In this document: one piece after another, positions 2,539 through 60,279 of the stretch
Layout: each line of letters starts with the position of its first letter
Position numbering within the stretch: position 1 is the first letter of the stretch
Source: Gonocerus acuteangulatus
Taxonomy: Eukaryota > Arthropoda > Insecta > Hemiptera > Coreidae
Assembly: GCA_946811695.1 (NCBI GenBank)
Contig: OX328124.1
Location: forward strand, 85,532,957 to 85,596,956
DNA length: 64,000 bases
Direction: 5' to 3'
Notes under the pieces: generated by a model
What the model was told of the DNA's origin: nothing
Database searches by the model: none
What the model saw: the letters and a program-made list of their open reading frames with translations, nothing else
Made by a program: the position numbers and the translations under genes

Positions 2539-3296
2539 ATATCTTTCATTACATATATAATAATATTTTTTTGTATTTGAACATAGTTTAAACAAATATG
2601 GACGGAAAAAATATGTACATTAAACTAAAACTAACATGAAATACACATTTGTAAAACACAAAGAAAATTGTTGTTATAAATTAAGCAGAAACTATGTTTT
2701 ACTATGTTTTTTTTTAGGCCACTCTTTTCTTAGTTACCTTTTTTAAGTAGATACAAAAGGGATTAATGTCATTGATGTTAAAGTTGGTTAGAAAACGGTA
2801 GATGAAAAAATTGTTGGTGTGTTCTTCCACAATTGGTCTTCTTCATCCAGTCCACAGTCGGTACAACTTTGATCATATTTTTTTATTTTTGAGGTAGAGT
2901 GTCTTCTTATATGCTAATCTTAGTTGGCTTATTATCTGTGTTTATTTAGGTCCACCTTTATCCATTAGTAGGTATGAATTACACGTAATGCGTTGTCTTA
3001 TTATGGTTGAGATTATTCCGAGTATTTCGTGAATTAATTTGAAATTGGGTATTTGAACTGAGTGGTCATCTATTATTTTATACTTTCGTAGTAAACATTT
3101 TTGCTTCGTCATTCAGTTTTGTGAAACTATGTTTTTGGGTTTTGAGTCCAGGGAGAGTAATTTTCGAAAGTATAACTTGGGGTACATTATCTCATCTGTA
3201 CCAAGTAGTATCATCCACCAGCCTGCAATTCTCTGTACAGCTTGTGTTGAAATGGTGTAGTTATTTTAGTACCAAACTATTTATTTTTTATTTTTA
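2539..3296. other. No gene seen
   Basis: AT-rich sequence without a recognisable gene or repeat boundary. Confidence 0.45.
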
Positions 3297-28955: not shown

Positions 28956-30222
28956 TGGCAAATAAGTCCTTTCGGTTTTTGTATTCATGTTTTGTTTACA
29001 ATATGTCACATTTATCTGATGCAATTAATCCCAACAGAGGATTGTTTATCCTATTTGTAATATGTAAACAGTTATGTCTGTCGACACTTGTTAAGATTAG
29101 GTCAGTATTGCGTTTGTGATCCAGCTGAGAAGATGGACGGTAATTTATTGCATTATAGGCATATTTTGCTGTATTATTTCAAAAAAGGAAAGCGAGCTGC
29201 AGAGGCTCATAAAAAAATATGCGGGGTCTATGGGGATAAAGCCTTAACAGAGCGCACGTGCCAAAATTGGTTTGCCAAGTTTAGGGCAGGGAATTTTGAC
29301 ATAAACGACGCACCACGACCTGGTCGTCCACAAGAAATTGAAAGCATTGATGTTAAGGCTATAGTCGATCAAAATCCTTCCCAATCAGTGCGAGACATTG
29401 CTGAGGCCCTAGATATATCACATGCAAGCGTAGAAAATCATTTGCGGAAGCTCGGCTACGTTTCTAGGCTGGATGTTTGGGTCCCCCACTCTCTGACCGA
29501 AGCCAACTTGGCAAAACGCATTTCCATTTGCGATTCCCTGCGAAAACGTCAAGAAAACGATCCATTTCTTAAAAGACTTGTGACAGGGGATGAAAAGTGG
29601 ATTGTCTACGATAATGTGGTGCGAAAAAAATCTTGGAGACCTAGCAACGAACCACCTGGAACCACATCTAAAGCGGGATTGCACCCAAAGAAGATAATGC
29701 TTTCTGTATGGTGGGGTTTTTTCAAGGGTGTGACTTTTTATGACCTGCTGCCACAAGGTAAATCAATCGATTCCACTCTATACTGCTCACAATTAACAAA
29801 ATTGAATGAATCAATTCGACGAAAACGCCCAGAACTGGCAAATCGTCTTCTATCATGATAATGCCAGGCCCCACACTTCGTTAGTCACCCGCAACAAATT
29901 GTTAGCCCTTGGATGGGATCTTTTGCCCCAACGTCCCTATTCACCGGACCTTGCTCCTAGTGACTACCACTTATTCCGGTCTCTACAAAATTCCTTAGGT
30001 GGAAAACGGTTTGAAACGAACAGGGTGTCAAGGAGCACCTTGATCATTTTTTCGCTAATGAACCACAGACATTCTATGAGCATGGGATTATTCAGCTGAT
30101 GGAGAGATTGGGTAAAGTAATAGAAAATAATGGACATTACATTGTAGATTAAAATAAAAATTATGTTCAAAATATACAATAGTTTTCTTTCAACTTAAAA
30201 AACCGAAAGGACTTATTTGCCA

Positions 30223-39686: not shown

Positions 39687-39848
39687 GGGGTCTCCCGTGG
39701 TCTAGTGGCTAGCGCCTTAGATTCATAAGCGGGAGATGGTGGGTTTGATTCCCATCGGCGGCAGGAATTTTTTCATCCCACGGCTCGTTGGAAAAAATCC
39801 TCGCTGCACCCTGGATGTCGGCGCTAATGGCCTAGATGTTGTAGCGCC

Positions 39849-40495: not shown

Positions 40496-40629
40496 GGCAC
40501 ATCTACATCTAGGTCATTAGCGCCGACATCCAGGGTGTAGCGAGGAATTTCACCAGCGAGCCGTGGGATGATAAAATTCCTGCCGGAGGTTGGGAATCGA
40601 ACCCACCATCTCCCGCTTATGAATCCAAG
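40444..40629 (-). repeat. SINE, minus strand, interrupted by the 14.7 kb element
   Basis: Poly-T (about 50) is followed by acggcacatctacatctagg and the reversed SINE body up to cttatgaatccaag. The remainder (ccaaggcgctagg...accacgggagacc) is at 55342-55378. The SINE carries its own 8-bp target duplication with one mismatch: ggttccag (40436-40443) and ggttcctg (55380-55387). Confidence 0.88.
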
Positions 40630-40746
40630 AGCCCTATTACGCTGGAACAGCAACATTGCAACCCCAACTTCAAACATACTCAGTAATTTGTTGCTAATTT
40701 GTTACACTATTTTCAAATTTGTCGCTCCAGCCGTTTCCGAGAAAAC

Positions 40747-42992
40747 GTGGCTGTGCTAGCGTAATATTACGCCAGCACAGCCACCCCTGTAACTTTTGAT
40801 CTAATTGTCTGACGAAATTCAGATTGGTACGAGAATTTGTTGCTAATTTGTTGCTCTAGAATGACACCAATCACGAATTTGTCGCTCCAGCCGTTTCCGA
40901 GAAAACGTGGCTGTGCTAGCGTAATATTACGCCAGCACAGCCACCCCTGTAACTTTTGATCTAATTGTCTGACGAAATTCAGATTGGTACGAGAATTTGT
41001 TGCTAATTTGTTGCTCTAGAATGACACCAATCACGAATTTGTCGCTCCAGCCGTTACCGAGAAAACGTGGCTGTGCTAGCGTAATATTACGCCAGCACAG
41101 CCACCCCCGTAACTTTTGATCTAATTGTCTGACGAAATTCAGATTGGTACGAGAATTTGTTGCTAATTTGTTGCTCTAGAATGACACCAATCACGAATTT
41201 GTCGCTCCAGCCGTTACCGAGAAAACGTGGCTGTGCTAGCGTAATACTACGCCAGCACAGCCACCCCCGTAACTTTTGATCTAATTGTCAGACGAAATTC
41301 AGATTGGTACGAGAATTTGTTGCTAATTTGTTGCTCAAGAATGACACCAATCACGAATTTGTCGCTCCAGCCGTTTCCGAGAAAACGTGGCTGTGCTAGC
41401 GTAATATTACGCCAGCACAGCCACCCCTGTAACTTTTGATCTAATTGTCTGACGAAATTCAGATTGGTACGAGAATTTGTTGCTAATTTGTTGCTCTAGA
41501 ATGACACCAATCACGAATTTGTCGCTCCAGCCGTTTCCGAGAAAACGTGGCTGTGCTAGCGTAATATTACGCCAGCACAGCCACCCCTGTAACTTTTGAT
41601 CTAATTGTCTGACGAAATTCAGATTGGTACGAGAATTTGTTGCTCTAGAATGACACCAATCACGAATTTGTCGCTCCAGCCGTTCCCGAGAAAACGTGGC
41701 TGTGCTACCGTAATATTACGCCAGCACAGCCACCCCTGTAACTTTTGATCTAATTGTCTGACGAAATTCAGATTGGTACGAGAATTTGTTGCTCTAGAAT
41801 GACACCAATCACGAATTTGTCGCTCCTGCCGTTTCCGAGAAAACGTGGCTGTGCTAGCGTAATATTACGCCAGCACAGCCACCCCCGTAACTTTTGATCT
41901 AATTGTCTGACGAAATTCAGATTGGTACGAGAATTTGTTGCTAATTTGTTGCTCTAGAATGACACCAATCACGAATTTGTCGCTCCAGCCGTTTCCGAGA
42001 AAACGTGGCTGTGCTAGCGTAATATTACGCCAGCACAGCCACCCCCGTAACTTTTGATCTAATTGTCTGACGAAATTCAGATTGGTACGAGAATTTGTTG
42101 CTAATTTGTTGCTCTAGAATGACACCAATCACGAATTTGTCGCTCCAGCCGTTACCGAGAAAACGTGGCTGTGCTAGCGTAATATTACGCCAGCACAGCC
42201 ACCCCCGTAACTTTTGATCTAATTGTCTGACGAAATTCAGATTGGTACGAGAATTTGTTGCTAATTTGTTGCTCTAGAATGACACCAATCACGAATTTGT
42301 CGCTCCAGCCGTTACCGAGAAAACGTGGCTGTGCTAGCGTAATATTACGCCAGCACAGCCACCCCTGTAACTTTTGATCTAATTGTCTGACGAAATTCAG
42401 ATTGGTACGAGAATTTGTTGCTAATTTGTTGCTCTAGAATGACACCAATCACGAATTTGTCGCTCCTGCCGTTTCCGAGAAAACGTGGCTGTGCTAGCGT
42501 AATATTACGCCAGCACAGCCACCCCCGTAACTTTTGATCTAATTGTCTGACGAAATTCAGATTGGTACGAGAATTTGTTGCTAATTTGTTGCTCTAGAAT
42601 GACACCAATCACGAATTTGTCGCTCCAGCCGTTTCCGAGAAAACGTGGCTGTGCTAGCGTAATATTACGCCAGCACAGCCACCCCTGTAACTTTTGATCT
42701 AATTGTCTGACGAAATTCAGATTGGTACGAGAATTTGTTGCTAATTTGTTGCTCTAGAATGACACCAATCACGAATTTGTCGCTCCAGCCGTTTCCGAGA
42801 AAACGTGGCTGTGCTAGCGTAATATTACGCCAGCACAGCCACCCCCGTAACTTTTGATCTAATTGTCTGACGAAATTCAGATTGGTACGAGAATTTGTTG
42901 CTAATTTGTTGCTCTAGAATGACACCAATCACGAATTTGTCGCTCCAGCCGTTTCCGAGAAAACGTGGCTGTGCAAGCATAATATTACGCCA
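40747..42992 (+). repeat. Left array: 15 hairpin units of 160 bp
   Basis: The palindrome gtggctgtgctagcg...cagcacagccac starts at 40747, 40907, 41067, 41227, 41387, 41547, 41696, 41845, 42005, 42165, 42325, 42485, 42645, 42805 and 42965. Spacing is exactly 160 except two adjacent 149-bp units that lack one gctaatttgtt. Its centre is gtaatattac. Units differ by a few recurring variants (gtttccgag or gttaccgag; cccctgt or cccccgt), which suggests repeated unequal exchange. The last hairpin is damaged and breaks off into the interior at about 42992. Confidence 0.97.
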
Positions 42993-43092
42993 CGAGTTCG
43001 GACGCATAGCGCAGGAAATCACGTGACCTTGAGCAAGTTTTTTCATTAAGGTCATAATTGGTTCGACAAATACGACCGATATTCCATTTTTC

Positions 43093-43159
43093 CTATATAT
43101 TTAAGCCGAAATCGCCCTGAGAACACTTTGAAGTGAGTAACGAATATTTTAAGGTGAGT
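43093..43159 (+). promoter_or_regulatory. Candidate core promoter, leader and splice donor of the cargo gene
   Basis: Just inside the left array the sequence has a TATA-like ctatatatttaag (43093-43105). About 50 bases further on, the strong donor context aag/gtgagt lies at 43151-43159. This fits a TATA promoter with a short non-coding first exon driving a gene rightward into the element. It is a prediction from motif spacing alone. Confidence 0.3.
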
Positions 43160-43232
43160 TGTAATTCCCATGATTTTCGTAGATGATGAAACGTCTGTGT
43201 ATGTAATTAAACCCTAATTTTTCATATTGTTT

Positions 43233-44250
43233 ATATGGGCGTATATAAGGGGGGGGGCTTAGGGGCTGCAGCCCCTCCCGGAATTTTGATTTCATGGTAA
43301 TAACCAGAGACCGAAAATAACTATTTTTATTTCAAATGAGTTTCACTTAACCTTTAATTTTTATTATTAGGAAATAAAAATAGAAATTCCATCGTAATTG
43401 ATAATATCAATTAGATATAAAATATATTATATTTTACTATTTAAAAAAAATGTTTAATAATTTTTATTTCAAAACCTTAAAAATAAAAATTATTTGAATA
43501 ATGTTATTTCGACATTTTTTTATAACAATTTTTAATAACCTTTTTTTTTTTACTTTAACTTTAAACATTATTTTAAATAATAAAAAAAAATTAATGCTAT
43601 AATAAATAGAAAGTAATGCACAAAAACGAAGTCTATAATATACAATATATACTCCTACAAATCAATTGGATTTAGAGGAACTTTGATTCACTGACATAAG
43701 CAAATAACTTCTATTAATCAAAAGGTTTCAAATCAAGTATTTATTGATTTATTCCGAGGATAAGAGATATTTAATAAATGAGTTTCACTTTACCTTTAAT
43801 TTTTATCATTGTGAATTATAAATAAAAATTCCATCGTAATTGATATATTTCATTATTTTTTTAAAACAATTTTCCAATAATTTTTATTTTAAGAACTTAA
43901 AAATAAAAATTATTTCATAACAGTTAATTATTAATTTTAAAAATATAAATTATGAAGTAATTTTCATTTTTTTAATTAAATCATTTTTAGGAAACATTTA
44001 ATTTTGATTTCGGTCCTTGATAAAAACTTGTCATTAAACCCTTAAAAATATATTAAATAAGATCACTTAGTTCATAATACATATTTTATTTTACGTGTAA
44101 TAACGTTTTAAGGTGCAAATGACAACTCACCGTAGATGCACAAAAAAAAATAAATAAATAAAAATAGCGTTTTAGTTGCCTAAAACTATTCCAATCTCTA
44201 AATTTTTAGTATTCCATACCCTGGAAATGGTCTCAGCCCCCCCCCCGAAA
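43233..44250. mobile_element. hAT-like MITE relative, expanded and truncated at the right end
   Basis: The left end atgggcgtatataag with a G run matches the 21774 MITE. The right part (44028-44250: aataagatcacttag, gtaatagcgttttagttgcc, ttccataccctggaaatgg, then a C run) also matches, but the final atacgcccatg is missing. Between them lie about 700 AT-rich bases with a direct repeat (gagtttcactta/ttacctttaattttt at about 43336 and 43776). A 54-bp A-tailed insert at 44111-44164 has taacgtttta/tagcgtttta on its flanks. It is either a longer parent copy or a MITE with later insertions. Confidence 0.65.
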
Positions 44251-44280
44251 TTTTCCCTGCCCCGTGGGGTGAGTTCGGAC

Positions 44281-44411
44281 ATGCATCAATTATACCCGCG
44301 TCCTCTTGGCTTAAAGGAAAACAGTATTTATTCCAAAGAGGCTTTGAAAAATGTGATTGACGATGTCAAATCCAAGAAGAAGACTCTGAGAGAGGCAGTA
44401 GATCGATTTAG
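44281..44411 (+). CDS. psq-type helix-turn-helix exon, probable transposase or transcription factor fragment
   Basis: From ATG at 44281, 43 codons and two extra bases run to a splice-donor-like gtatttt. The protein has a short head (MHQLYPRPLGLKENSIYS) and then KEALKNVIDDVKSKKKTLRE and AVDRF. This is the pattern of the psq/CENP-B-like helix-turn-helix (eAl..Ai..v.....slreAa..f.v) found at the N-terminus of Pogo/Jerky-type transposases and of Pipsqueak-like regulators. The recognition helix would start in the next exon, which I could not find. It lies inside the giant Foldback-like element, so it may be cargo or a remnant of a transposase. The start codon is a guess. Confidence 0.55.
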
Positions 44412-45064
44412 GTATTTTGTTGTTTCTTTATTTATTATTTAGTTATTTCTTTAGTTTATTTATTTGTTGGTGTTCTGCATTATGCCGAAGTACACCTTAT
44501 ATTTTATATAGTTATTACAGAACATTATATGAGCTTATTGCCTATATATGTATATTATGTATATATTATTACATTGCATTATATTACCTTATTCTTTATG
44601 TATATATTATTACATTGCATTATATTACCTTCTTTTTTATGTATATATTATTACATCGCATTATATTACCTTATTGCCTATATGTTTACATACTAACATT
44701 AAATTATGCTTAATATAAGCTTGTTTTTATTATTTACTTAAATACATATGTACATATACATATAATATTAGATTACATGATTTTAAATTATTTTGAGTAT
44801 TTATATATTGTGTTAGTGCTATTGCATTGTATTAAAAAATAATGTTAAGAATAGAACTTAAAAAAAAAAATTACATTAAAAATTAGTTTTAAAATATTTT
44901 GTTTTTGCTAAATGAATTACTGTTGTTTGAACGTAAAATTTAAAAAAACAAATTAATAATTCTTATCCAAAATATTTTGTGATAATAGAATAAAACTTTA
45001 TCCTTAAATCAGTAAAATACATTATTTATGAAATTACTAAACAATGTCATAGTTATTTATTATT
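44412..45064. other. Intron-like AT-rich DNA with a 41-bp tandem repeat
   Basis: The phrase attattacattgcattat recurs at 44565, 44606 and 44647, a 41-bp period, between about 44520 and 44700. The rest is low complexity. The 98-codon Y/I/L-rich frame over it is an artefact. Confidence 0.75.
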
Positions 45065-45181
45065 TATTCTTCCCTTATACTACCTTTTATATCCTTCCTA
45101 ATACCACCTCTGATAACCTTCCTAATGCCTCCTTCTAAATCCCTTCCTAATTCCACCTCTTATATCCTTCCTAGTAACATC
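45065..45181 (+). repeat. Pyrimidine-rich imperfect tandem repeat
   Basis: About four copies of a roughly 25-35 base phrase like atccttcctaataccacctc run up to the left edge of the next MITE. Confidence 0.7.
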
Positions 45182-45452
45182 CATGGGCATAGGAAGGGGG
45201 GCCTGAGAGGTCTGCAGACGCCCCTCCCACGAAATTTTGAGTTGGTAATAATGTGGCATAAACCCTCAAAAATAAATTAACTAAGACCACTTGGTTTATA
45301 CAAAATACTTGAACCTTGGTGTTATAACGTTTTAGTTGGTTAAAACTATTCCAAGTTCTAAATTGTTAGTATTCCATACCCTGGAAAAGGCCTTACCCCC
45401 CCCCCAAATGTTACCCGCCCCTCCCGAAATGATTTTCTATTCCTATACGCCC
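45182..45452. mobile_element. hAT-like MITE, second complete copy
   Basis: It is about the same length as the 21774 copy (271 against 269 bp), with ends ccatgggcat and atacgcccatg and shared landmarks (taactaagaccactt, cgttttagttgg, ttccataccctggaaaagg, C run). The flanks do not form a clear 8-bp duplication (gtaacatc or nearby against ataccaac), so it is older or rearranged. Confidence 0.8.
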
Positions 45453-45544
45453 ATGATACCAACTTCGATATCATTCCTAATACTTAAAAATATTTTTAAA
45501 TCTTTATCGATCTTACCTAATAGACTCCGAAAATGACCCCCGTT

Positions 45545-45594
<50 letters not shown>

Positions 45595-45600
<6 letters not shown>

Positions 45601-46883
45601 GTCCCGTAAATGTCTAGTCAAATTGTGAGGGGTGATAGAGGACCCTTGGGGGAACAAAAAATGTTCTATAACGATTTCCCGAATTCTCACCTATAAGGGA
45701 GAAATCGTCGTTTTATTGTTTTATCGAGACAAACGTGGTTTTTGGAAAAATAATCGTTGTAGCTCCGTCCCAGGTGGTTCTACTAGAAAGGGAGTGAAAC
45801 CAATCGAAAGCTGAGTAAATTTACTATAAGATTAGTTGGAAGTAAGCGTATAAATGATTGAATGTAAGTATGTATATCTTACCAAAAGAAAGCTATTCTA
45901 AATTTCCTGACATTTTCTTGATATTTCTTTCCAGCGTTACTCCTCAATGGGCAGAATTAGAGATTTCCGGGTTTCAGAAAAACTTCCCCATTTAATTATC
46001 TTTCCATTCATGTATCACAACCCTGTATTGAAGTATTTGAACGGTTTTAAAACAAAAGTTTTAAAAAAAAACATGGATCTGTGAAAAGAAAATTACTTCC
46101 ACGAACATAAAAAAAATGCCTGAAACAGTAAATAAAATACAAATTTATTTTGATTTTATTAATTCAGGTACCTAATACTGGGTCCAGGAGGCGGCCATTA
46201 AGGATCCCCAACTATACATTAACCTCAAAAATTATTATTTTTACCTAGATCACGCACGCATTTGAACACACTTTTACAGGTATTTATGTTTAGAAAACAA
46301 ATGCTTTACCTTGAATTGATACTGATTGCTACGCTTATGAAACTCACAGGGATTCTCGTGAGCCCATACGTTTTAGTTGTGGTAATTAAAAATGCTATCC
46401 CTCATAAATAAGATGTACATAGTCCAGTACAAATGTTTTCAAATGCTAGGTAAAAATAATAATTTTGAGGTTAATGTATAGTTGGGGTTCCTTAATGGCC
46501 GCTTCCTGTACCCAGTATTAGTTACCTGAATTAATAAATTCAAAATAAATGTGTATTTTATTTATTTACAGTTTTAGAATTTAGAATATCTTTCTTTTGG
46601 TAAGATATACATACTTACATTCAATCATTTTTACGTTTACTCCCAACTAGTCTTATAGTAAATTTACTCAGCTTTCGATTGGTTTCACTCCCTTTCTAGT
46701 AGAAGCATCTGGGACGGAGCTACAACGATTATTTTTCCAAAAACCACGTTTGTCTCGAAAAAACAATAAAACGACGATTTCTCCCTTATAGGTGAGAATT
46801 CGGGAAATCGTTATAGAACATTTTTTGTTCCCCCAAGGGTCCTCTATCACCCCTCACAATTTGACTAGACATTTACGGGAACC

Positions 46884-46886
<3 letters not shown>
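45595..46886. mobile_element. Foldback DNA transposon, about 1.3 kb, TA-flanked
   Basis: The left end agggtgtcccgtaaatgtct and its inverse at 46868-46886 open two long arms. At least the outer 290 bp are near-identical inverted copies (aattgtgaggggtgatagag, atttcccgaattctcacc, ctccgtccca). Further in, tacctaatactgggtccagg and ccaactatacattaacctca at 46170-46230 are mirrored near 46460-46530. TA arrays lie on both sides. The 60-codon frame that appears on both strands (RILTYKGEIVVLLF...) is simply the inverted repeat read twice. It has no transposase. Confidence 0.88.

Positions 46887-46958
<72 letters not shown>
46887..46958. repeat. (TA)n array between two transposons
   Basis: About 70 bases of TA separate the elements at 45595-46886 and 46959-47809, so both sit at the edges of one TA microsatellite. 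Confidence 0.95.
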
Positions 46959-46961
<3 letters not shown>

Positions 46962-47806
46962 GGTGTTCAAAACTCGATTGACACCCCCCTTTTTTCCACA
47001 ATTTTTGATATTTAAAAGCGAAACTTGGTGGGTATTAACGCGGTTGAATGTACATTCATTGGACCCAATGCACGACCCATCAACTTTCTCCAGGTCTTCT
47101 CCAGCAACCCTAACTCTGGAATCTTCAATGGAAGGGGGTTATTTTTATGACGGATTATTGTAGAGAATTGAATTTTAGGTCGATTTTATATCGGTCATTT
47201 TTTCGCTAAAGCGCACCAATGAGTAACAAATTGCCAAAAACCGTTAAAACCCTTGTTTTTTGTCACTTTTCTGCCAATAACGCAGAAAGTATGTCCGTAA
47301 TGGAAAAAGTAATTGGTATAGTCGTTGTAGAGGATTAAATTTTCTTTCCAAAAAGTACCTTTAAATGCCTAAAACGTAAATAGGAATGGAGCAAAACACA
47401 CTTTTGTTTTTGAAGTTTTCAGAAAAGTTTATGATCAACGTGGTCTACGCTTCCGTAAAACTTAATAAACGTTTTCTAAACTTTTTGCTCCACCTAAAAA
47501 TCAAATTCAATTACTTTATAAAGGCATTAAAATAATAAATTTTAAGCAATAGAACTGACCTAATGATTAGAATTTCGTAGCAATTATTTTTGTGTTGGAC
47601 GATTTATTTATTTTTTACGGCGTCTTGACATCTAGGCCATTATTGCCGACATCCAGGGTGCAGCGAGGAATTTCCTAAATAATAAAAGTTGAGGGGTCGT
47701 GCATTGGGTCCAATGAATGTACATTCCACCACGTTAAGACCCACCAAGTTTCGCAAATATCAAAAATTGTGGAAAAAAGGGGGGTGTCAATCGAGTTTTG
47801 AACACC

Positions 47807-47809
<3 letters not shown>
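46959..47809. mobile_element. TIR element, about 850 bp, TA-flanked, carrying a SINE piece
   Basis: The ends cagggtgttcaaaactcgat and the inverse at 47790-47809 open inverted repeats of about 135 bp (gtgtcaatcgag, cacaatttttgatattt, ccaccaagtttcgc, ggacccaatgcacga). TA lies on both sides. The right arm is preceded by a SINE 3' fragment on the minus strand (47615-47675: ttacggcgtcttgacatcta, ccattattgccgacatccag). No transposase frame was found. Confidence 0.88.
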
Positions 47810-47884
<75 letters not shown>

Positions 47885-47945
47885 TTGATCCACCATTATT
47901 TTCCATCTCAAGGGGATCTGAAACGCAAAATTTTCTAGTCGGCAC
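47810..47945 (+). repeat. (TA)n array and GCGGTTCC-family 3' stub
   Basis: About 70 bases of TA are followed by aaatttgatccaccattatt, then gggatctgaaacgcaaaatt and gtcggcac, the family's post-TA block. It stops before the terminal hairpin. Confidence 0.75.
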
Positions 47946-48589
47946 ATCATCACATCACCTGTGTGACTAGGTGTCGTCAGTGTGTTTTGCAAGGAAGCCT
48001 TTTGTAAAAACGTTCATAATTTTCGATCTATTTGTTCTGTAATTAACTTTTATGCAAGAATTAATATCAAGAATAATTTTCATTTAATTTTGATGATATC
48101 ACAAAAAAAAACACAAATTACTCTTATTTATTTGCTGTTTTTTTTTTATTCTAGAATTTCAATTACATTATGAAATTGAGAGATAATCTCCGTTTTGAGT
48201 ATTCCTTTGGAAATTTGATTAAATAAAACAACATTTGTGTGATTCGGCAGTTTGGAGGATTTATTTTCGAAGAGTAGTGATTTTCGAAACGTTGTCTCTA
48301 ACCAGAAGTTTATATTATTATTGTTTGAATTGATACTACGGTTTGAATGAGATAATTGTGGGCATTTAATGTACATTAGCCTTTAAGAACATTTATGGGC
48401 CTTTATTTCTTTTTTTTATTTATTTAATTTATAGAGTTCTGCAACAGAGGCGAAAAACTCTTTAAATGTCAGTCGTCAACTTCAAATGTGATATATATGT
48501 ATATAAGAACATATGAAGAAATAAACTTGAAAAAGAAAGAAGAAAAAAACAAACAAACAAAAAAAAAAATAAAATAATCAAAACAGACA
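47946..48589. other. No gene seen; AT-rich, possible 3' UTR of the next relic
   Basis: On the minus strand this follows the Jockey-type tail at 48590-48859 and may contain its 3' UTR. T-rich and A-rich runs at 48130 and 48540-48580 are candidates for its polyadenylated end. Confidence 0.4.
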
Positions 48590-48900
48590 AAATTTAGTAA
48601 ATTAAATTTTTGTGTATAATAAAGAGTTTTTTAAATATTTGAGTAATGCATTGATGTGTGGGCTACCTTCTGTCAGTAAGTCGTAAGGTATGGTCAGGTT
48701 ATTGCGTTGTCTGCAGTTGGTAAGTATATGTTTAACGGTCAGAGTCTCGTTACAATATCTACAAGTTGGTCTGTCCTTTCTGTCTAGTAGGTAGGTGTGG
48801 GTAAGTAAGGTGTGTCCAATACGAAGCCTGGATAGGATGACTTCGTCCCGGCGGGACAACTGTTCATTTGTTCAGGCTTTCGTTGTATTTTTGTATATGG
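48590..48900 (-). pseudogene. Jockey-type non-LTR element, C-terminal fragment
   Basis: The best-preserved copy of this tail in the window has 85 open codons: SRRDEVILSRLRIGHTLLTH, TYLLDRKDRPTCRYC, LTVKHILTNCRQRNNL and LLKYLKNSLLYTKI. The C..C...H....C knuckle and the RLRIGHT..LTH block characterise the C-terminal end of arthropod Jockey/CR1-group retroelement polyproteins, after RNase H. Upstream on the minus strand it meets a stop, and RNase H and RT are absent. It was inserted in, or captured by, the Foldback-like element. Confidence 0.75.
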
Positions 48901-48914
48901 GCCTTTAAGAACAT

Positions 48915-49390
48915 GAAAAAGTCCAACTCGCAGGAACTGCGTCATCTTAGCGCGGTTACGTACATCTTGAAGAAATGGAATAGATTAGCATCACAAATCA
49001 CAGGAAACTGACAGCCACTGCCATCATGATTACCACAGCCACTCCAAACTTATTACCAATACCTTTCACCGTTTGTTAGCTTATTTTACTACAATACTAA
49101 TTTTACTGATAAATGCAATTTAAAACTAGAAACAACCAATTAAAAAGTGAGATAAAGAAAGAGAAAACCCATTTCAAAACAACAAAACAAACACTTTTTA
49201 AGTTTTAAGCGCTTATATCTCTCATTGACGTTGTCCCATCGAATATTGCTTCAGAACATTTTTTGTAGAGAATTTAGTAAGCATTCGAATGGTCACTTTC
49301 CACTTACCACGATTTCCCAACCGGTATCGAGATATTTACGAAAAATGTATGGAGATCCGAAAATTTTTCACGTCTATTAATAAAATATTT
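48915..49390 (+). repeat. GCGGTTCC-family copy, 5' half
   Basis: It starts aaaagtccaactcgcaggaa, passes agcgcggtt, and reaches the ttttaagcgcttatatctct module and gtctattaataaaatatttt, then stops. The segment 49196-49390 is almost identical to 51885-52090, so one is a recent duplicate of the other within the element. Confidence 0.75.
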
Positions 49391-49394
49391 TTTT

Positions 49395-50000
49395 TCTGAA
49401 AGGAACTGATCCATCTTAGCGCGGTTCCGTTCTTATCCGAAGTGCGATTAGGAAAGGAATAGTAGCTGCTATCGCTAGGTTTTGATCTTTCGTTAAAAAT
49501 ATAAAATAAAATCTCAAAGAGAAGGAAGCTTAAAGCGCCACATATGGAAACTGACAGTTTTCTAAGTGGATGGGACTCTCCCGTCATCGCGACGCTTACT
49601 CTAGGAAAACTCTATTACCAATATGATTCTTATTTTCTCAGCTTTAATGAAATACTCATTCAACCGTTAAATAAACTTAAAAAACAAAAGTGAGGTAAAC
49701 AGTGACAAAAACCCGTTTAAAATAACAAAACTAACACTTTCGTAGTTTTAAGCACTTACTTCTCCGACTGACATTGCCCCATCGAAATTTCCTTCAGAAT
49801 CTTTTTTTTAGAGAATTTAGTAAGCTTTTGAATGGTTACATCGTACTTCCCACGATTTCTTAACAGTTTGGAAGATATTAAGGGGGGGGGGGAAATGGTG
49901 CTAATACCTACCGATAGCTGCTATATTCCTTCACTAATCGCACTTGAGATAAGAACGGAACCGCGCTAAGATGAAGCAGTTCCTGCGGGTCGGACTTTTT
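49395..50000. repeat. GCGGTTCC-family copy with inverted 5' ends
   Basis: It begins ggaactgatccatcttagcg and cggttccgttcttatccgaa. At 49905-50000 the same start occurs inverted (gataagaacggaaccgcgct, cagttcctgcgggtcggact). The two inverted arms are about 80-90 bp around a family body (49690-49890), making a foldback of about 600 bp. Confidence 0.8.
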
Positions 50001-50599
50001 TTTTGTCAGACAAATTAATGTATTATGTTTATATTATAATATAAATATTATGTTTATAAGAAGAGCAAATCACTTTAATTGCGGTGTAAAATATTGTTGC
50101 TAGATAAATCTAAGTATTATATAAGGAAAAAATGGTGCTAATGACTCAGATTTCGATGCACCATAAAAGAAAAAAAAAATTAAGGACAATATACGAAGAT
50201 TCCAAACCATTTCATGTCTGTTAATAAAATATTTTATTCTAATCCCAATAACGCTACACTTATACACAAATAAATTTTTTTTAAGTACCTATTTAATACG
50301 TGTAAAATAAGGTTATAATGAGCGATCCGCTGTGGCATATAACAAGTACTACCACCGTGTGGAGTGCAACTAGTATAAACCGGTACGTCAGTACCACTGT
50401 GGTATGTAAAGAGCGGCTGTTCTGATACTGGCAAAAGTTAGAAATCCTACATTCCTAAAGTTGTTTGGGGGCTTATCTTTATGACTCTAGAAAGGGACTC
50501 ACAGATGACGAGGATACACTGGGCGATACCTGTACTGGGAATGCCCTCCACCCTAAGCCTCCTAGCTCCTCACCTTCGAATTGAAACAAAACATTGTTT
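50001..50599. other. No gene seen; family scraps
   Basis: It contains a short family piece at 50190-50245 (ttcatgtctgttaataaaat) and otherwise unrecognised DNA, including a GC-richer stretch at 50460-50580. Confidence 0.45.
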
Positions 50600-51668
50600 C
50601 TATATATACGTATCCTGTTTTATTGACTAATACATTTGACTACTATAAGCAATCACAAAAATAACGAGCAGTGAAAAAAAACTGTAGGAAACACACAAAA
50701 AGATTCGTTCAAATGAACGAAATTACCTATGTTTTAAGCACTTATTTCTCCAAATATAACCGTCCCATCGCAAATGTCTTCAAAACATTTTTTGTAGAAA
50801 ATTTAGTAACCTTTCGAATGGTAACCTTTCGCTTCCCAAGATTTTCAACCGTTTTCGAGATATTAATGAAAGTATACGAAGTTCCCAAAATTTTCATTAT
50901 TTCTAGCAACAGAAAATTGGTCTCATTTTTCCTATCCTGTTTTACAAACAAATACATTTTCCTAACATAAGAAATTACAAAAATAAAAAACGAAGGGAAA
51001 TAGACAAAAATTACAAAAAGAACGACAAAAACCCGTTCATAAGAACAAAACAGACGTATTTGAAGTTTTAAGCACTTATTTCTCCGATTGACATAACCTA
51101 ATCAAAAATAGTTTTAGAATCATTTGTATAGAGAATTTAGTAAGCTTTCAAATAGTTTCTATCCACTTACCACGATTTCCCAACCGTGTTCGAGATATTA
51201 ATGAAATTATACGAAGTTCCCAAAACTTTTCATGTCTGTTCATAAAATATTTTATTCTAACCCTTCCTTAACTCCAAACGTAACATAACTTTCAACATAT
51301 TAGTTTTAATGAAAGTAGAACATGCAGATAATGTTTCAACTGAATCCCGTGATTCTAAGTACCCAAACCAAAAACGGTATTCAAAAACTATTTTTCCAAA
51401 TTTCTCGAAAACGGTTAAAGCTATCGCCTTGAAAATGGTTTCATTCGTTTTCCTAGCCCAAGAAGCCTATAAAAAGAGTACTTACAAGCTTATGAACTCA
51501 AAAACGTAAGCGTTACGATTTTTTCAGCGCGAATTTCGCCCCAAACGCCATTTTCCAGTGGGCGGATTTTGCTGGTTAACGAACTTGACCTTTCAAATTG
51601 GACGACTGATTTTTGTACCAAATTTCATCAAAATCGGACCATCAGGGAAGCCAGAAATGAGTGAACAG

Positions 51669-51718
<50 letters not shown>

Positions 51719-52506
51719 ATATATACATATATATATATATACAAATTTGAACCACCGTTATTTTCGGTCTTTAGGGGTTCTGAAACGCGAAATTTTCTTG
51801 TCTGCACTTCCGGATTGTTTCATTGTATCAACCTTATAAGCGGGGTTCCTCCCTATGGGGGAGGGAGGAACCGCGCTAAAACAAACACTTTTTAAGTTTT
51901 AAGCGTTTATATCTCTCATTGACGTTGTCCCATCGAATATTGCTTCAGAACATTTTTTGTAGAGAATTTAGTAAGCATTCGAATGGTCACTTTCCACTTA
52001 CCACGATTTCCCAACCGGTATCGAGATATTTACGAAAAATGTACGGAGATCCGAAAATTTTTCACGTCTATTAATAAAATATTTTTTTCGCATACTTCCT
52101 TAACTCCAAATGTAACCAAAATTTAATCATCTTAGTTGGGATTAATTTCCAAGATGTAGAAAATATTTCAATTGAATCCCGCGATTCTAAGTACTCACAA
52201 AAAAATAATGACCTACAAAAACATTGATTCCACTTTTCTCAGAAACGGTTACATATATCACCTTAAAAATGGGTTCATTCGTTTTCTTATGTTAACAAAC
52301 CTATAAAACAAGTACCTGCAAGCATATAAACTCAAAAACGTAAGCGTTACGATTTTTTTTGCGCGAATTTCGCCCCAAACACTATCTTCAAGTAGGCGGA
52401 TTCTGCTGGTTAACGAACTTGACCTTTCAAATTAGAAGACAGATCTTTGTGCCAAATTTCATCAAAATCGGACCATTTTTGAGCCGTCAGGAGCGCGAAC
52501 AGACAA

Positions 52507-52573
<67 letters not shown>

Positions 52574-52712
52574 CAAATTTTAGCCACCTATATTTTCGTG
52601 ATCTATAGGGTCTGAAACGTGAAAGTTTCTAGTCGGCACTTCCGGATTGTGTCATGAGGTCAACCTCATAAGCGGGTTCTCCCTATGGAGATAGGGAGTA
52701 ACCGTGCTAAAA
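50600..52712 (+). repeat. Three consecutive GCGGTTCC-family units
   Basis: Units at about 50600-50930 (5' half), 50935-51880 (complete 3' end) and 51881-52712 (complete 3' end) lie head to tail. The second and third each have the internal TA array (51672-51740; 52509-52570) and the terminal palindrome (ggttcctccctatgggggag, then ggaaccgcgctaaaa at 51880; diverged ggagtaaccgtgctaaaa at 52712). No proteins are encoded. The in-frame peptide GGFCWLTNLTFQ...NFIKIGPS recurs only because the DNA recurs. Confidence 0.8.
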
Positions 52713-53132
52713 AGAGTATTTTATAAAGGGAGCCTGCTAGAGTTGTTGTTACCAGGTATGTAAACATAACATCACGTGGACAAGTTAAGAGAGTTAAGAA
52801 TGAGGGAGGAAGCGGTGAATTTCCTGTAGCTACTAGGTACTGTCAGATTCCTGTGAAGGCTGATTCTTATAATCTCCCGTTCTCCGGTATGCCATTGCGT
52901 CGGTGTTTTAATTTTTCTCAAAATACCAAAACATAATATTAACCTTTAAGTAGAGATGTGGGGAGTTTTAAGCACCCCATGACTTAATTAGCACTATATT
53001 TTGAATTTAAAAATTTACAATCCATTTCATCGCTTTGGTACCTTCATAAAGAGTAGTTCTCTTCACATTGAGGTTGCATTCGCAGAAAAAAAAACATTAT
53101 TTGTTTATTTCCTGGGCCTTTTACTGACTTAG
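52713..53132. other. No gene seen; ends in an acceptor-like site
   Basis: A pyrimidine-rich stretch followed by gacttag at 53127-53132 could be a splice acceptor for the exon-like segment after it. Confidence 0.35.
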
Positions 53133-53319
53133 GGTGTTCTCAACACTCTACTTACGTAACAAAAATTTAAAATATAATGTCTTCTTTCGACCGCCGTTTG
53201 ACATTTTATATGAAGAGAATCAAGAAATAATGAAGAGGCGTTTTAAGTAAATGTGTGAAAATGATGGAGAAGATGAGTGTATTGATTCGGACGATGAGGA
53301 AAGAGATAGGTATTTTTGA
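53133..53319 (+). pseudogene. Possible acidic C-terminal exon of the cargo gene
   Basis: Reading with one carried base, the frame gives VFSTLYLRNKNLKYNVFF, RPPFDILYEENQEIMKRRFK, a stop (TAA at 53248), and continues in the same frame with ENDGEDECIDSDDEERDRYF to TGA at 53317. The acidic end is typical of many transposase and nuclear protein tails. The phase (needs two bases from upstream) fits the psq exon at 44281-44411, which leaves two bases. There is no homology call and no intermediate exon, so this is weak. Confidence 0.22.
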
Positions 53320-53334
53320 AAAATCTACTATATA

Positions 53335-53830
53335 TTTGTCAAATACCACTCACTCACTCACTCACTAACTGACCTATCATCCCCTAGCCCAAACCACACG
53401 ACAGAAAATTTTGAAATTTTGCAGGACACTCCCTATAGAACGTAGGTGCTCGCTAAGAAAGAATTTTTTGATATTCGAATTTTTAAGTATTTTTAGAGGG
53501 GTTTAAAGTTTGAGTTGGTTAGAGCAGGCAAGCCTAGGTAGCATGCGTTGCTAGGACGATAACAGAACAGCTGTTACTATACTCTATCTATTTCATAGTA
53601 TTATTTTTAATTGAGGTTAATTTCAACTATCATGGCAGACCTTGAATTACTAAAACTGAGAAATAAAATGTGAATTTTTCCCTCAAAGAGTTTCCGCCCT
53701 TGACACAAAAATTTGAAATTTTACACGGGCCATCCGTTTAAAGTATAAACACTCGCTAAGAAAGGTTTTTTATTTTTATATTCAAACGTTTAAGTACTTT
53801 TAGGGGGGTTTGAATTATTAAGAAGAAAAT
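53335..53830 (+). repeat. Imperfect direct repeat pair
   Basis: The segment from cgacagaaaattttgaaatt to tatttttagaggggttt (53400-53505) recurs diverged at 53703-53808 (aaatttgaaattttacacgg, cactcgctaagaaagg, agtacttttaggggggttt). A short cactcactcactcact stretch precedes the first copy. Confidence 0.7.
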
Positions 53831-53910
53831 GGTTCGAATTTGATAACATTTGGTACAAAAATCTTTCTTCTTATTTAAAAGTTTATGTTCATTAACCACC
53901 AATCACGAAT

Positions 53911-55224
53911 TTGTGCTGGCGTAATATTACGCTAGCACAGCCACGTTTAATCGGAAACGGCTGGAGCGACAAATTCGTGATTGGTGTCATTCTAGAGCAA
54001 CAAATTAGCAACAAATTCTGGTACCAATCTGAATTTCGTCAGACAATTAGATCAAAAGTTACGGGGGTGGCTGTGCTAGCGTAATATTACGCTAGCACAG
54101 CCACGTTTTCTCGGAAACGGCTGGAGCGACAAATTCGTGATTGGTGTCATTCTAGAGCAACAAATTAGCAACAAATTCTGGTACCAATCTGAATTTCGTC
54201 AGACAATTAGATCAAAAGTTACGGGGGTGGCTGTGCTGGCGTAATATTACGCTAGCACAGCCACGTTTTCTCGGAAACGGCTGGAGCGACAAATTCGTGA
54301 TTGGTGTCATTCTAGAGCAACAAATTAGCAACAAATTCTCGTACCAATCTGAATTTCGTCAGACAATCAGATCAAAAGTTACAGGGGTGGCTGTGCTGGC
54401 GTAATATTACGCTAGCACAGCCACGTTTTCTCGGAAACGGCTGGAGCGACAAATTCGTGATTGGTGTCATTCTAGAGCAACAAATTAGCAACAAATTCTC
54501 GTACTAATCTGAATTTCGTCAGACAATCAGATCAAAAGTTACAGGGGTGGCTGTGCTGGCGTAATATTACGGTAGCACAGCCACGTTTTCTCGGAAACGG
54601 CTGGAGCGAAAAATTCGTGATTGGTGTCATTCTAGAGCAACAAATTAGCAACAAATTCTCGTACCAATCTGAATTTCGTCAGACAATTAGATGAAAAGTT
54701 ACAGGGGTGGCTGTGCTGGCGTAATATTACGGTAGCACAGCCACGTTTTCTCGGAAACGGCTGGAGCGACAAATTCGTGATTGGTGTCATTCTAGAGCAA
54801 CAAATTAGCAACAAATTCTCGTACCAATCTGAATTTCGTCAGACAATCAGATCAAAAGTTACAGGGGTGGCTGTGCTGGCGTAATATTACGGTAGCACAG
54901 CCACGTTTTCTCGGAAACGGCTGGAGCGACAAATTCGTGATTGGTGTCATTCTAGAGCAACAAATTAGCAACAAATTCTCGTACCAATCTGAATTTCGTC
55001 AGACAATTAGATCAAAAGTTACGGGGGTGGCTGTGCTGGCGTAATATTACGCTAGCACAGCCACGTTTTCTCGGAAACGGCTGGAGCGACAAATTCGTGA
55101 TTGGTGTCATTCTAGAGCAACAAATTAGCAACAAATTCTCGTACCAATCTGAATTTCGTCAGACAATTAGATCAAAAGTTACACGGGTGGCTGTGCTGGC
55201 GTAATATTACGGTAGCACAGCCAC
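53911..55224 (-). repeat. Right array: 9 hairpin units, inverted
   Basis: A partial palindrome lies at 53911 and full ones start at 54067, 54227, 54387, 54547, 54707, 54867, 55027 and 55187, exactly 160 bp apart. The sequence is the reverse complement of the left array. Several palindromes here read gtaatattacggtagc instead of ...cgctagc, a variant also seen once on the left side, at 41696 (gctaccg). Confidence 0.97.
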
Positions 55225-55350
55225 GTTTTCTCGGAAACGGCTGGAGCGACAAATTTGAAAATAGTGTAACAAATTAGCAACAAATTACTGAGTATGTTAG
55301 AAGTTGGGGTTGCAATGTTGCTGTTCCAGCGTAATAGGGCTGAATCCAAG

Positions 55351-55378
55351 GCGCTAGGCATTAGACCACGGGAGACCC
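55351..55378 (-). repeat. SINE head separated by the 14.7 kb insertion
   Basis: gcgctaggcattagaccacg and ggagacc complete the tRNA-like head of the SINE that begins at 40444. Confidence 0.88.
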
Positions 55379-55379
55379 C

Positions 55380-56798
<1,419 letters not shown>

Positions 56799-57706: not shown

Positions 57707-60279
57707 CTAGGGTAGCTGGTCACGGGGCCAAACTCTCTTAAGCCTCCTGGGAAGGTCTTTAGGACGGGTCTGAGTGGAAAGGGATTGACCTCTAGGATTT
57801 GGATGGGATGACAATTTGGAATGAAACGTTAGGAATCTGGATGTTGCGAGGTCTTTTACGAAGGGAATATTTAGGTCATTGTGTAGGGTTTTGTTGGAGA
57901 CATAAAAGGGAGCATTGACTATTCCACGAAGGACTTTGGATTGGAATGCTTGTATTCGTTGTATATTTGAGTGTTTTGCTGTTCCCCATAATTCAAGTCC
58001 GTAAGTCCAGATAGGTCTGATGATGGTTTTGTATATAGTGAGTTTGTTTTGTGTCGTAAGCTTTGACATAGGGCCGAGTAGTCGTCTTAAGAGTCCAAAT
58101 CTCCTGTTCACCTCTTGTCTTTTTAGTCGTGTGTGTGGGTTCCATGTGAGTCTGCTGTCTAGTAGAAGTCCCAGGTAACGCACCTCATTAGATACAGGAA
58201 GTTGACTGTTGCATATGAAGACTGGAGGGCAAGTGCTCTTATTAAGAGTAAATGTTACGTGAGAGCATTTTTCAGGATTCACTGTGATTTTCCACAAGGT
58301 GTACCATTTCTCGACAGACTCAAGGTGCTCCTGTAATTGCTGAAAAGCTGTAGAGGGATCGGGGGAAGAGGAAAAAATGGCAGTATCATCGGCGTAGGTT
58401 GTTATATGTGTAGATGGGTGGGTAGGGATGTCTGCCGTATACAGGAGGTAAAGGACAGGACCTAGGATGCTGCCTTGTGGAACGCCTCAGGATATGGGTC
58501 GGGAGGAGAACAAGGTAGTACCAGACCTTGCTTGAAAGGAACGATGCGAGAGGTAGGATTGAAGGATGAGGTAATATGTGTGAGGTAAAATACGCTTTAC
58601 TTTGTATAACAACCCCGGGTGCCAAACCCGATCGAACGCTTGGGCAACGTCGAGGAAGGCACTCGTGCAGTAGTTTTTACATTCAAGCGCGTAGGATATT
58701 GTGTCAACAACGCTGAAGCATTGTTGGATAGTGGAGTGACGTAAGCGGAAACCGAACTGGTGGTCAGGAATAGAATTGGAGGATGTAACGATGGGAAGGA
58801 TACTCTTTAGAAAATATTTATGGGGTTTGGGAATAAGAATTATTATGGAGTGTTTCCATGGATTGGGAAAGTGAGTAGTTCTTAGGATTGAATTAAAGAT
58901 GTAGGTAAGGAAGATTATGGCTTTCTGGGGTAGGTTTTTTAGGATGCGGGCTGTGATAAGGTCGTAACCAGGGGATTTTCTGGGGAGGTGTTTGATGATA
59001 TATTTTACGTCTGCTGGATTGAATGCTTTCGGTGGAGGGGAGAGGGGAAGAGGGTGGTCAAGGTGATCATACACAATCTGGTCATGGGTGGAATTTGTCT
59101 CTGGGTGCGAGGAAAATGTGGATTCTAGATGGGTTGCGAATAGTTCGGCTTTTTCCTCATCGCTTCTTGCCCAGCTGCCGTCACTGCGTTGGAGAGGATG
59201 AGGAACGGAATGGAATTTGAGGATTTTCCGAGTAGCAGTCCAGAGGGAATTATCTTCTGTGGATAGTGTTTGAAGATAATCATTGAAGGATTTGGATCGA
59301 TGTTCGGAAAGGGTCTTTTTTAGGATTCGACAAAGTCTATTGAAGGAGGAACGGTGGGAGGGATAGCGGGTTCTCTGCCAGAGAGCTCTTGCTCGGCGCT
59401 TGGCGGTTAGAAGGTTCTGTATGTGGTCTGGAAGCTGAGGTTTAGGATTGGAAGGAAGGTGTGTTCTTAGTCTACACGATTTTATGACACTGTCCTGGAT
59501 GGCTTTAGTAAACGTAAGAACGGCACTGTCGACATCTGATGGAATTTTAAGGGGAATAGTAAGGTCTATGGAAGCGGTAAGGTTTTCTTGGAATAATTTC
59601 CAGTTGATAGGACCTTGGATGAGGCTAGAATACTGGGCACGAGGTTGAGGAACGGTATCAAGCTTAAGGAGAATGGCTGAGTGATCGGAGGATAGGTCAA
59701 GCAGTGACTGCACAGAGTAAGATATACTTCCTAGGCAAGAAGAGATGAAGAAATCGACCAAGTCTGGAGTTCGAGAGAGATCTGTAGGCCAGTAGGTGGG
59801 AGAGGTTGTATAGGATTCTGCCACGGGAGTTTGTGAGACGGCTTCCCCATCTGGGATGTTTCGCATTGAAATCAGCCCCTATGAGGATGCGAGGACCAAA
59901 GGATCTGAATAGTGAAAGGAATTCAGGATGGTGGATGGTACTATTAGGGGAAAAATATGCAGCCGATATTATGAAATTTTGGGAGGAAAGGGAAAGGGAT
60001 ATTCAACTTACCTGCATATTGTCTGTCGAGATTGTAGAGTGTAGAAAGTGAGCCAGTGAGTTCTTCAGCTGCTCCGTTGTGGGCTACAGTTGGGTGATCG
60101 GCCCTGTAAGTTGCGTATCCTGGGACTGAAAAATGGTGTTTGTTGAGTAAGTGTGTTTCCGTTATCAGTGCAATGTCGATGTCCTTTTCTGTGAGTAGAA
60201 GTTCCAGTTCAAGTCGTCTTGTTGTAAGTCCGTTTGCATTCCATAGAAGTATGGTACGAGGAGAAGGGGGTGGGATCAT
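57707..60279 (-). pseudogene. Jockey-type ORF2: AP endonuclease plus reverse transcriptase
   Basis: About 857 codons from ATG at 60279 to the stop at 57707, close to normal length. Endonuclease: ILLWNANGLTTRRLELELL, LITETHLL, ISAAYFSPN and GADFNAKHPRWGS. Reverse transcriptase: KSPGYDLITARILKNLP, HSIIILIPKP, FGFRLRHSTIQQ, AFLDVAQAFDRVWHPGLL, GVPQGSILGPVLY and the catalytic TYADDTAIF (near 58390-58415). The C-terminal connection is VRYLGLLLDSRLTW, KTIIRPIWTYGLELWG. Breaks: a frameshift near 59970-60040, another near 59815, and an in-frame TGA at 58487 just before GVPQGS. Beyond that stop the frame is open to the end. Few lesions, so the copy is young but inactive. Confidence 0.92.

Follow-up and report, generated by a model that had tools for sequence, protein, structure and literature searches.

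Foldback (FB) elements of Drosophila are recognized by long inverted ends built from tandem repeats, with units much shorter than those described below, and by a 9-bp duplication of the target site. Comparable architectures have been reported in other animals. The inverted termini of Rehavkus-1_TC, a 9.5 kb element of the Mutator/Rehavkus type from Tribolium castaneum, contain short arrays, mostly of five and eight copies, of a 164-bp unit (PMC10218199); Rehavkus elements are more generally described as having arthropod and annelid hosts, 9-bp duplications, inverted ends of 26-400 bp and a minisatellite ahead of the 3' end, while duplications of 8-11 bp, and long inverted ends in most members, are given for the Mutator superfamily as a whole (PMC6446971). 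Tetris, a non-autonomous element of Drosophila virilis, consists of an outer domain followed by ~220-bp tandem repeats and of a non-coding middle, with duplications of 8-10 bp (PMC4079207). Tm1 of root-knot nematodes, which includes coding and non-coding groups, has composite tandem-repeat ends and mostly 9-bp duplications (PMC3169594), and for Galileo footprinting and sequence search located extra transposase sites within the tandem-repeated ends (PMC3688188). In this work, we describe an element of this general design in the genome of the coreid bug Gonocerus acuteangulatus. It occupies positions 40630-55341 (14,712 bp) of a 64,000-nucleotide stretch of contig OX328124.1, hereafter the window, and quite probably represents one insertion of a foldback-type DNA transposon which is non-coding and present in many copies, and which is likely mobilized in trans by a cut-and-paste transposase, probably of the Mutator/Rehavkus type.

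The two ends of the element are inverted copies of each other: their outer 117 bp are identical at 116 positions, the outermost 54 bp, which lie ahead of the arrays (40630-40683 and 55288-55341), at 53, and the inverted similarity extends over arms of 1,015 bp (40630-41644 and 54327-55341, 98% identity). Inside the outer 54 bp, each end continues as a tandem array of a 160-bp unit, found in 14.4 copies on the left (40716-42992, 97% matches), two of these units being 149 bp long, and in 8.4 copies on the right (53912-55255, 98% matches); the first unit of each array is altered, being 92% (left) and 91% (right) identical to the standard one. An exact 9-mer, GAATCCAAG, is found on both sides of the element, at 40621-40629 and 55342-55350. 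Long tandem-built inverted ends with a variable number of units, accompanied by a target-site duplication, are the features of the foldback type, and a duplication of 8-11 bp with long inverted ends is also what PMC6446971 gives for the Mutator superfamily. A first-pass annotation, made on the sequence alone, had outlined a 14.7-kb span with a 117-bp outer segment, arrays of a 160-bp unit, a hairpin in each unit and an exact 9-bp flanking duplication, and is borne out on all of these points. The features of the locus are as follows.

40498..40620, minus strand: left part of the target repeat, dispersed and SINE-like (short interspersed nuclear element) by reading, with a relative at 39687-39839
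40621..40629, no strand: left target-site duplication GAATCCAAG, present at both flanks and in single copy in the unoccupied target L038
40630..40683, plus strand: left outer terminus, 54 bp, beginning AGCCCTATTACGCTGGAACAGC, with an inverted match of 53/54; its first 29 bp have 794 genome matches
40684..42992, plus strand: left array, about 14 units of 160 bp (the first altered, two of 149 bp), from tandem and inverted repeat analysis
40747..40784, plus strand: hairpin of the first unit, a 38-bp near-palindrome with terminus-like arms, from folding and alignment
42993..53911, plus strand: interior, a non-coding body whose main blocks recur in 20 copies, with no Pfam domain in 29 open reading frames
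45597..46886, no strand: nested element with ~300-bp inverted ends (arms 45602-45904 and 46578-46880, 97%), between TA runs
46959..47809, no strand: second nested inverted-end element, beginning CAGGGTGTTCAAAACTCG, between TA runs, ends judged by eye
53912..55287, minus strand: right array, about 8 units of 160 bp in inverted orientation, from tandem and inverted repeat analysis
55288..55341, minus strand: right outer terminus, 54 bp, matching the left one inverted at 53/54
55342..55350, no strand: right target-site duplication GAATCCAAG, the 9-mer found at both flanks
55351..55610, minus strand: right part of the target repeat, a repeat shared with the left flank; the joined flanks match L038 1807-2198

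The genome (1,106 Mb in 135 contigs) was searched with the first 29 bp of the terminus, allowing up to 3 mismatches, and 794 matches were found, 390 forward and 404 reverse; a 55-bp piece of the unit gave 4,450 (2,271 and 2,179), and the controls, run backward for the terminus, gave none (0 + 0 for the terminus, 0 for the unit). Termini of opposite orientation lying at most 16 kb apart were then paired, mostly on contigs C1 and C5, and the flanks of 25 pairs, a non-random set, were compared; L062, whose right end falls outside the retrieved stretch, was dropped, and L024, with two bases of right flank only, was omitted. An exact duplication, always of exactly 9 bp, was found in 22 of the 25 pairs, and in none of 600 combinations of mispaired flanks; a further pair, from a copy on contig C22, shows a duplication matching at 8 of 9 positions. 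When the flanks of the window copy are joined, with the 9-mer retained once, they match L038 without gaps at 1807-2198 (392 bp, 98.7%), and this unoccupied target elsewhere in the genome identifies the window copy as a real insertion. By reading, the target, a dispersed repeat, contains a tRNA-like part and a poly-A part, and a relative of it is found inside the window at 39687-39839 (90% over 154 bp); ARAGORN called no tRNA within the window. The genome search with the terminus, proposed at first pass as a check, thus returned 794 matches and exact duplications at 22 of 25 end pairs, and the definition then put forward, a transposon similar to Foldback, its inverted ends being built in tandem and its insertion accompanied by 9-bp duplications, is supported by the arrays, the termini, the duplications and the unoccupied target.

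Twenty further copies were retrieved, as stretches of ~10 kb from one end; having been picked as the top-scoring hits of a 216-bp query which reaches into the first unit, they form a non-random sample that favours window-like copies. All 20 feature an array at the retrieved end, and in 11 the opposite array also falls within the stretch. Their interiors keep the blocks of the window copy in identical order, in most cases with at least 95% identity (about 85 to 99.8% overall), and occur in two forms: form A, similar to the window copy, and form B (L012, L020, L024, L026, L027 and L028), shorter and without some of the blocks. A third group, C, with a different interior, was first found in the C22 copy (L058/L059). 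Mid-element samples were taken from eight C1 elements chosen as having no exact A/B left boundary listed between their termini: five match the C22 copy at 93-96% (two over part of the sample), and the remaining three match A or B, one of them across half. A group C sample was found at no fewer than 40 places at 97-100% identity (the best 40 of 1,305 candidates). The left interior edge of forms A and B occurs 133 times, with up to 3 mismatches; since 794 termini imply about 400 elements, roughly one third carry this edge, and the others are group C, interior-free, otherwise altered, or truncated. The blocks being common to family copies, the "mixed cargo" attributed to the element at first pass is mostly the body of the family itself, and the term remains appropriate for a few nested elements only, such as the one at 45597-46886, which is found in only some copies.

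The units of the sampled arrays are much alike. Among those of exactly 160 bp (239 of 263 units, the 24 of other lengths being excluded), the number of differences per 160 bp is 2.5-2.6 for units of one arm, 2.95 for units of opposite arms and 2.8-3.0 for units of different elements, figures which leave hardly any room for homogenization of units within single elements. In this sample, which favours window-like copies, such similarity (~2.5-3 differences per 160 bp) would fit a recent expansion of a few sources better than a gradual homogenization in place; the family is numerous and apparently young.

A near-palindrome of 38 bp, paired throughout except at one mismatch, is present in each unit. 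When three 63-base pieces of the unit were folded as DNA, they reached -17.9 to -18.7 kcal/mol (z from -6.5 to -7.4), and for each of them none of 200 shuffled sequences folded as well. The palindrome arm, TATTACGCTAGCACAGCCAC, resembles the terminus from five bases inside its tip, TATTACGCTGGAACAGCAAC, at 17 of 20 positions (18 of 25 in the overall alignment). Aligned to the unit, the 54-bp terminus scores 26 on one strand and 24 on the other, scores which 10 and 34, respectively, of 5,000 dinucleotide shuffles attain, and both alignments start at one and the same terminus base, at the palindrome; the unit thus holds two face-to-face terminus-like sites, devoid of the tip AGCCC. No exact termini abut each other in the genome (end to end, gap 0-20), so that, if the units descend from two fused elements, no intermediate of such a form has survived. 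A pattern for atypical termini, from which the standard sub-terminal bases were excluded, gave only two genome matches, L057, a terminus-like match, and L058, a diverged member of the family. At one end of the latter (C22:6558573) two terminus tips follow each other, CCAGCGTAATATCACCCTG and then CCAGCGTAATAGGGCT, possibly a picture of how duplication of the terminus begins.

Some copies have no interior. L037 is only 751 bp long and is flanked by its own exact 9-bp duplication, GTGAAACTG; L062 exceeds it in length, and its right end falls beyond the stretch. In both, the arms change strand at the hairpin centre, about which mirror symmetry holds at 50 of 60 positions in L037 (which has a short left arm) and at 595 of 600 in L062. 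The inner edges of the arrays fall within the hairpin in A and B copies, and elsewhere in L038 and in the C22 copy. Breakage or template switching promoted by the palindrome is a reasonable, but unproven, explanation of the interior-free copies.

By description, the family shares with Drosophila FB both the tandem-built long inverted ends and the 9-bp duplication, but FB units are much shorter. On the strength of the 9-bp duplication and of the arrays of 160-bp units within inverted termini, the closest described element is Rehavkus-1_TC, the comparison being one of descriptions. The 9-bp duplication given for Rehavkus (PMC6446971) is found here, as are minisatellite arrays at or near inverted termini, reported at both termini in one source (PMC10218199) and before the 3' end in the other (PMC6446971). 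There are also differences: for Rehavkus, inverted ends of 26-400 bp and a minisatellite before the 3' end are described (PMC6446971), and the present ends lie within this range if only the 54 bp ahead of the arrays or the 117-bp outer segment are considered, and reach more than 1 kb with the arrays, which are found on both sides; and while "several" copies are mentioned for Rehavkus-1_TC (PMC10218199), 794 termini are found here, with no coding gene in the examined copies. Tetris is similar, by description, in its outer domain followed by tandem repeats, its terminus-like units and its non-coding middle, but it is represented by three structurally complete copies whose middle varies in composition and size (PMC4079207), whereas a few interior forms are shared among the copies described here. 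Tm1 is likewise similar in its composite tandem-repeat ends and mostly 9-bp duplications, and differs in its 13-15 bp units, in its size (elements of 1,080 and 2,593 bp) and in having a known 496-aa transposase (PMC3169594). The first-pass suggestion of an undescribed family must accordingly be split: it is plausible for the sequence, which was not found in the paper listings and passages covered by our literature search, but not for the architecture, for which Rehavkus-1_TC (PMC10218199), Tetris (PMC4079207) and Tm1 (PMC3169594) are precedents. We file these sequences as a new family of the Foldback/Tetris/Rehavkus kind, rich in copies and apparently non-autonomous. That it belongs to Rehavkus or to the Mutator superfamily is likely, though not established.

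These features can be brought together in a model in which a transposase made elsewhere would bind the terminus and, in addition, the terminus-like sites of the arrays, which would act as extra binding sites. Both long arms could thus be gathered into one complex; the enzyme would cut at the 54-bp terminus, the putative cleaved end, and insert the element with a 9-bp stagger, the large coding-free body being carried along. A similar scenario has been proposed for Tetris, in which 37 bp are common to the units and the outer domain (PMC4079207). The 160-bp units may have arisen through duplication of DNA containing the terminus. The interior would be lost, and interior-free palindromic copies produced, when strands are exchanged or the template is switched at the palindrome of a unit.

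A number of observations, set out in this and the following paragraphs, weigh against this reading or parts of it. The duplication is absent in 3 of the 25 pairs: in two, the flanks differ by 3 and by 6 mismatches, and in the third they are mirror images. The latter copy, C5:846151-852700, has flanks which mirror each other exactly over 14 bases (TAGCTGTATTTATA and TATAAATACAGCTA), a pattern expected if the locus had undergone inverted duplication or had been folded during assembly. Long inverted arrays being hard to assemble, the mirrored flanks might be taken to indicate that the whole structure results from ectopic inverted duplication or faulty assembly, with no transposon involved. Such an explanation is scarcely credible in front of 794 termini, 22 independent exact 9-bp duplications and an unoccupied target site; the duplications already refute it for the family as a whole, and the many independent copies with duplications of their own speak, at the sequence level, against an artefact at the window locus.

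Moreover, the palindrome shows no excess of conservation over the remaining part of the unit (mean variability 0.0102 versus 0.0107); one of its pairs is broken in 61 of 239 units, and the mismatched pair is closed in 14 of 239. Recent selection for the hairpin is not apparent from these figures, which leave its interpretation as a selected structure unsupported. Among junction types, classified by eye, only 5 of 9 have the array edge in the hairpin (P 0.04), which is only suggestive of a preferred breakpoint. The palindrome calls to mind a quite different mechanism. Its centre is GTAATATTAC, which contains TAATATTAC, the origin nonamer of geminiviruses and their kin, and each unit provides a GC-rich stem around it; the hairpins might then be rolling-circle origins, like those of circular Rep-encoding single-stranded (CRESS) DNA viruses and geminiviruses, through which the element replicates. 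We regard this as very improbable. The centre arises because two terminus-like sites (TATTACGC...) face each other, and the nonamer is taken as a coincidence; the exact 9-bp duplications at the ends point to integration by staggered cuts; a stem pair is broken in the 61 units just mentioned; and no Pfam domain was detected in 29 interior frames (at least 60 aa) of the window copy, to which the search for a Rep protein was confined and in which none was found.

A further objection to the transposon model is that no transposase was detected in any copy examined. In a survey of frames of at least 90 aa, TA-repeat frames being skipped, the longest one in the interior shared by the window copy and the 20 retrieved copies is of 162 aa; longer frames in L026 sit in parts missing from other copies, and one of them resembles, by reading, a reverse transcriptase. 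The 29 frames analyzed with Pfam were selected from 42 stop-to-stop ones, 13 having been excluded as TA-repeat, array or overlapping frames. Within the family the scan covered, besides the window copy, a single 85-aa frame of the C22 copy which looks like the end of a hAT-type protein; Pfam found nothing in it, and no claim is made for it. No long frame was present in the mid-element samples of the eight C1 elements, a 301-bp sample from another part of a group C element was non-coding, and Rfam gave no match in the window at gathering scores. As far as examined, the family is apparently non-autonomous and, with no transposase gene in these copies, is likely moved by an enzyme made elsewhere.

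Candidates for such an enzyme were sought in the genome by domain. For Mutator-like elements (MULE), PF10551 has two genome matches and PF20700 a single short one, and no terminus-like sequence was found in any of these loci. One PF10551 match, L029, encodes a 688-aa protein with C2H2 and MULE domains, and no family terminus is present within its 15-kb stretch; a protein search returned 26 relatives, the named ones mostly from insects, and nothing bearing on the foldback family. The second match was discarded as an IS256-like bacterial protein, and the PF20700 one gave no lead. Autonomous Rehavkus members encode a PHD-finger transposase, none of which was seen in copies of the window family. 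The PHD finger PF00628 has 50 genome matches, and the five places examined, none of which is an element of the family, read as LINE-type (long interspersed nuclear element) or host genes.

Distances to exact termini, 100 of the 794 being listed, were evaluated on C1 and on C5 below 97.6 Mb, places farther along C5 being omitted: none of the MULE (2), P-type (4) and Merlin-type (39) places lies within 20 kb of a listed terminus. This bears on two other possible sources of the enzyme. Merlin-type (IS1595-like) domains are the most abundant transposase domains among those searched, with at least 150 matches (the best 150 of 272 candidates), many of them with stop-free frames, and Merlin duplications, of 8-9 bp, would be compatible with those observed; Merlin elements, however, are short and without such ends, and, with all 39 places (C1, C5) being distant from the listed termini, mobilization by a Merlin-type transposase is unlikely. 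One group of similar Merlin-type copies is characterized by three TAA stops. Alternatively, the family might belong to the P superfamily as a non-autonomous group, as with Galileo, its foldback-like ends having arisen independently. P-type transposase domains are indeed present, with 15 genome matches. Galileo and P, however, produce duplications of 7-8 bp, while all 22 exact ones found here are of 9 bp, a length which makes P membership unlikely, and none of the four P-type places (C1, C5) is close to a listed terminus. Galileo has long, internally repetitive ends, similar to the present ones, with several transposase sites (PMC3688188). Its transposase, of the P superfamily, and its shorter duplication set it apart, and we consider this possibility quite improbable. 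A Mutator/Rehavkus-type enzyme acting in trans remains the preferred reading.

A bolder version of it may also be considered, which we find rather doubtful. The elements would be giant parasites of a transposase, their tip-less, face-to-face units, copies of the terminus, allowing each array to bind many molecules of the enzyme without being cleaved, so that large coding-free elements would outcompete the autonomous copies which feed them; the palindromes would also serve as breakpoints at which full copies are continually converted into near-perfect foldback palindromes, and the enzyme would come from a barely described, or undescribed, lineage producing 9-bp duplications.

Other sequences of various kinds were encountered in the course of the analysis. 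At L030 (C1:102626054) an IS256-like transposase (PF00872, E 1.5e-92) adjoins a fragment of a TraD/TrwB-like conjugation ATPase (E 2.1e-59): this is bacterial DNA within a 170-Mb contig, present by transfer or contamination, and perhaps Rickettsiales-like, by reading. The window also hosts, at 29088-29858, a truncated mariner transposase of the Mos1 type (256 aa, PF01359 and PF17906), which overlaps the end of another frame, and, on the minus strand at 58487-59866 and 57707-58297, a broken LINE with a reverse transcriptase domain in a 459-aa frame and a second, downstream frame which reads like the end of the LINE. Within L031 (763-2872) several pieces are repeated ~1.58 kb downstream, at ~75-91% identity, as if a block had been duplicated, and L032 features, at 2653-3201, a tandem repeat of identical copies with a 119-bp period, shortly past a PHD-containing LINE-type frame.

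If the proposed reading is correct, the genome of G. acuteangulatus contains hundreds of long, highly similar inverted arrays, from which inversions and deletions might originate, as has been reported for Galileo, and which could seed satellite DNA, as proposed for Tetris. The instructive features of the family are its terminus-like palindromic units, its interior-free palindromes and the occurrence of three interior forms without a detected gene. Its copies being numerous, apparently young and inserted in targets whose unoccupied counterparts can be found, the family would make it possible to test directly why repeated terminus-like DNA is present in foldback elements, whether as extra binding sites, as decoys or as by-products of recombination.

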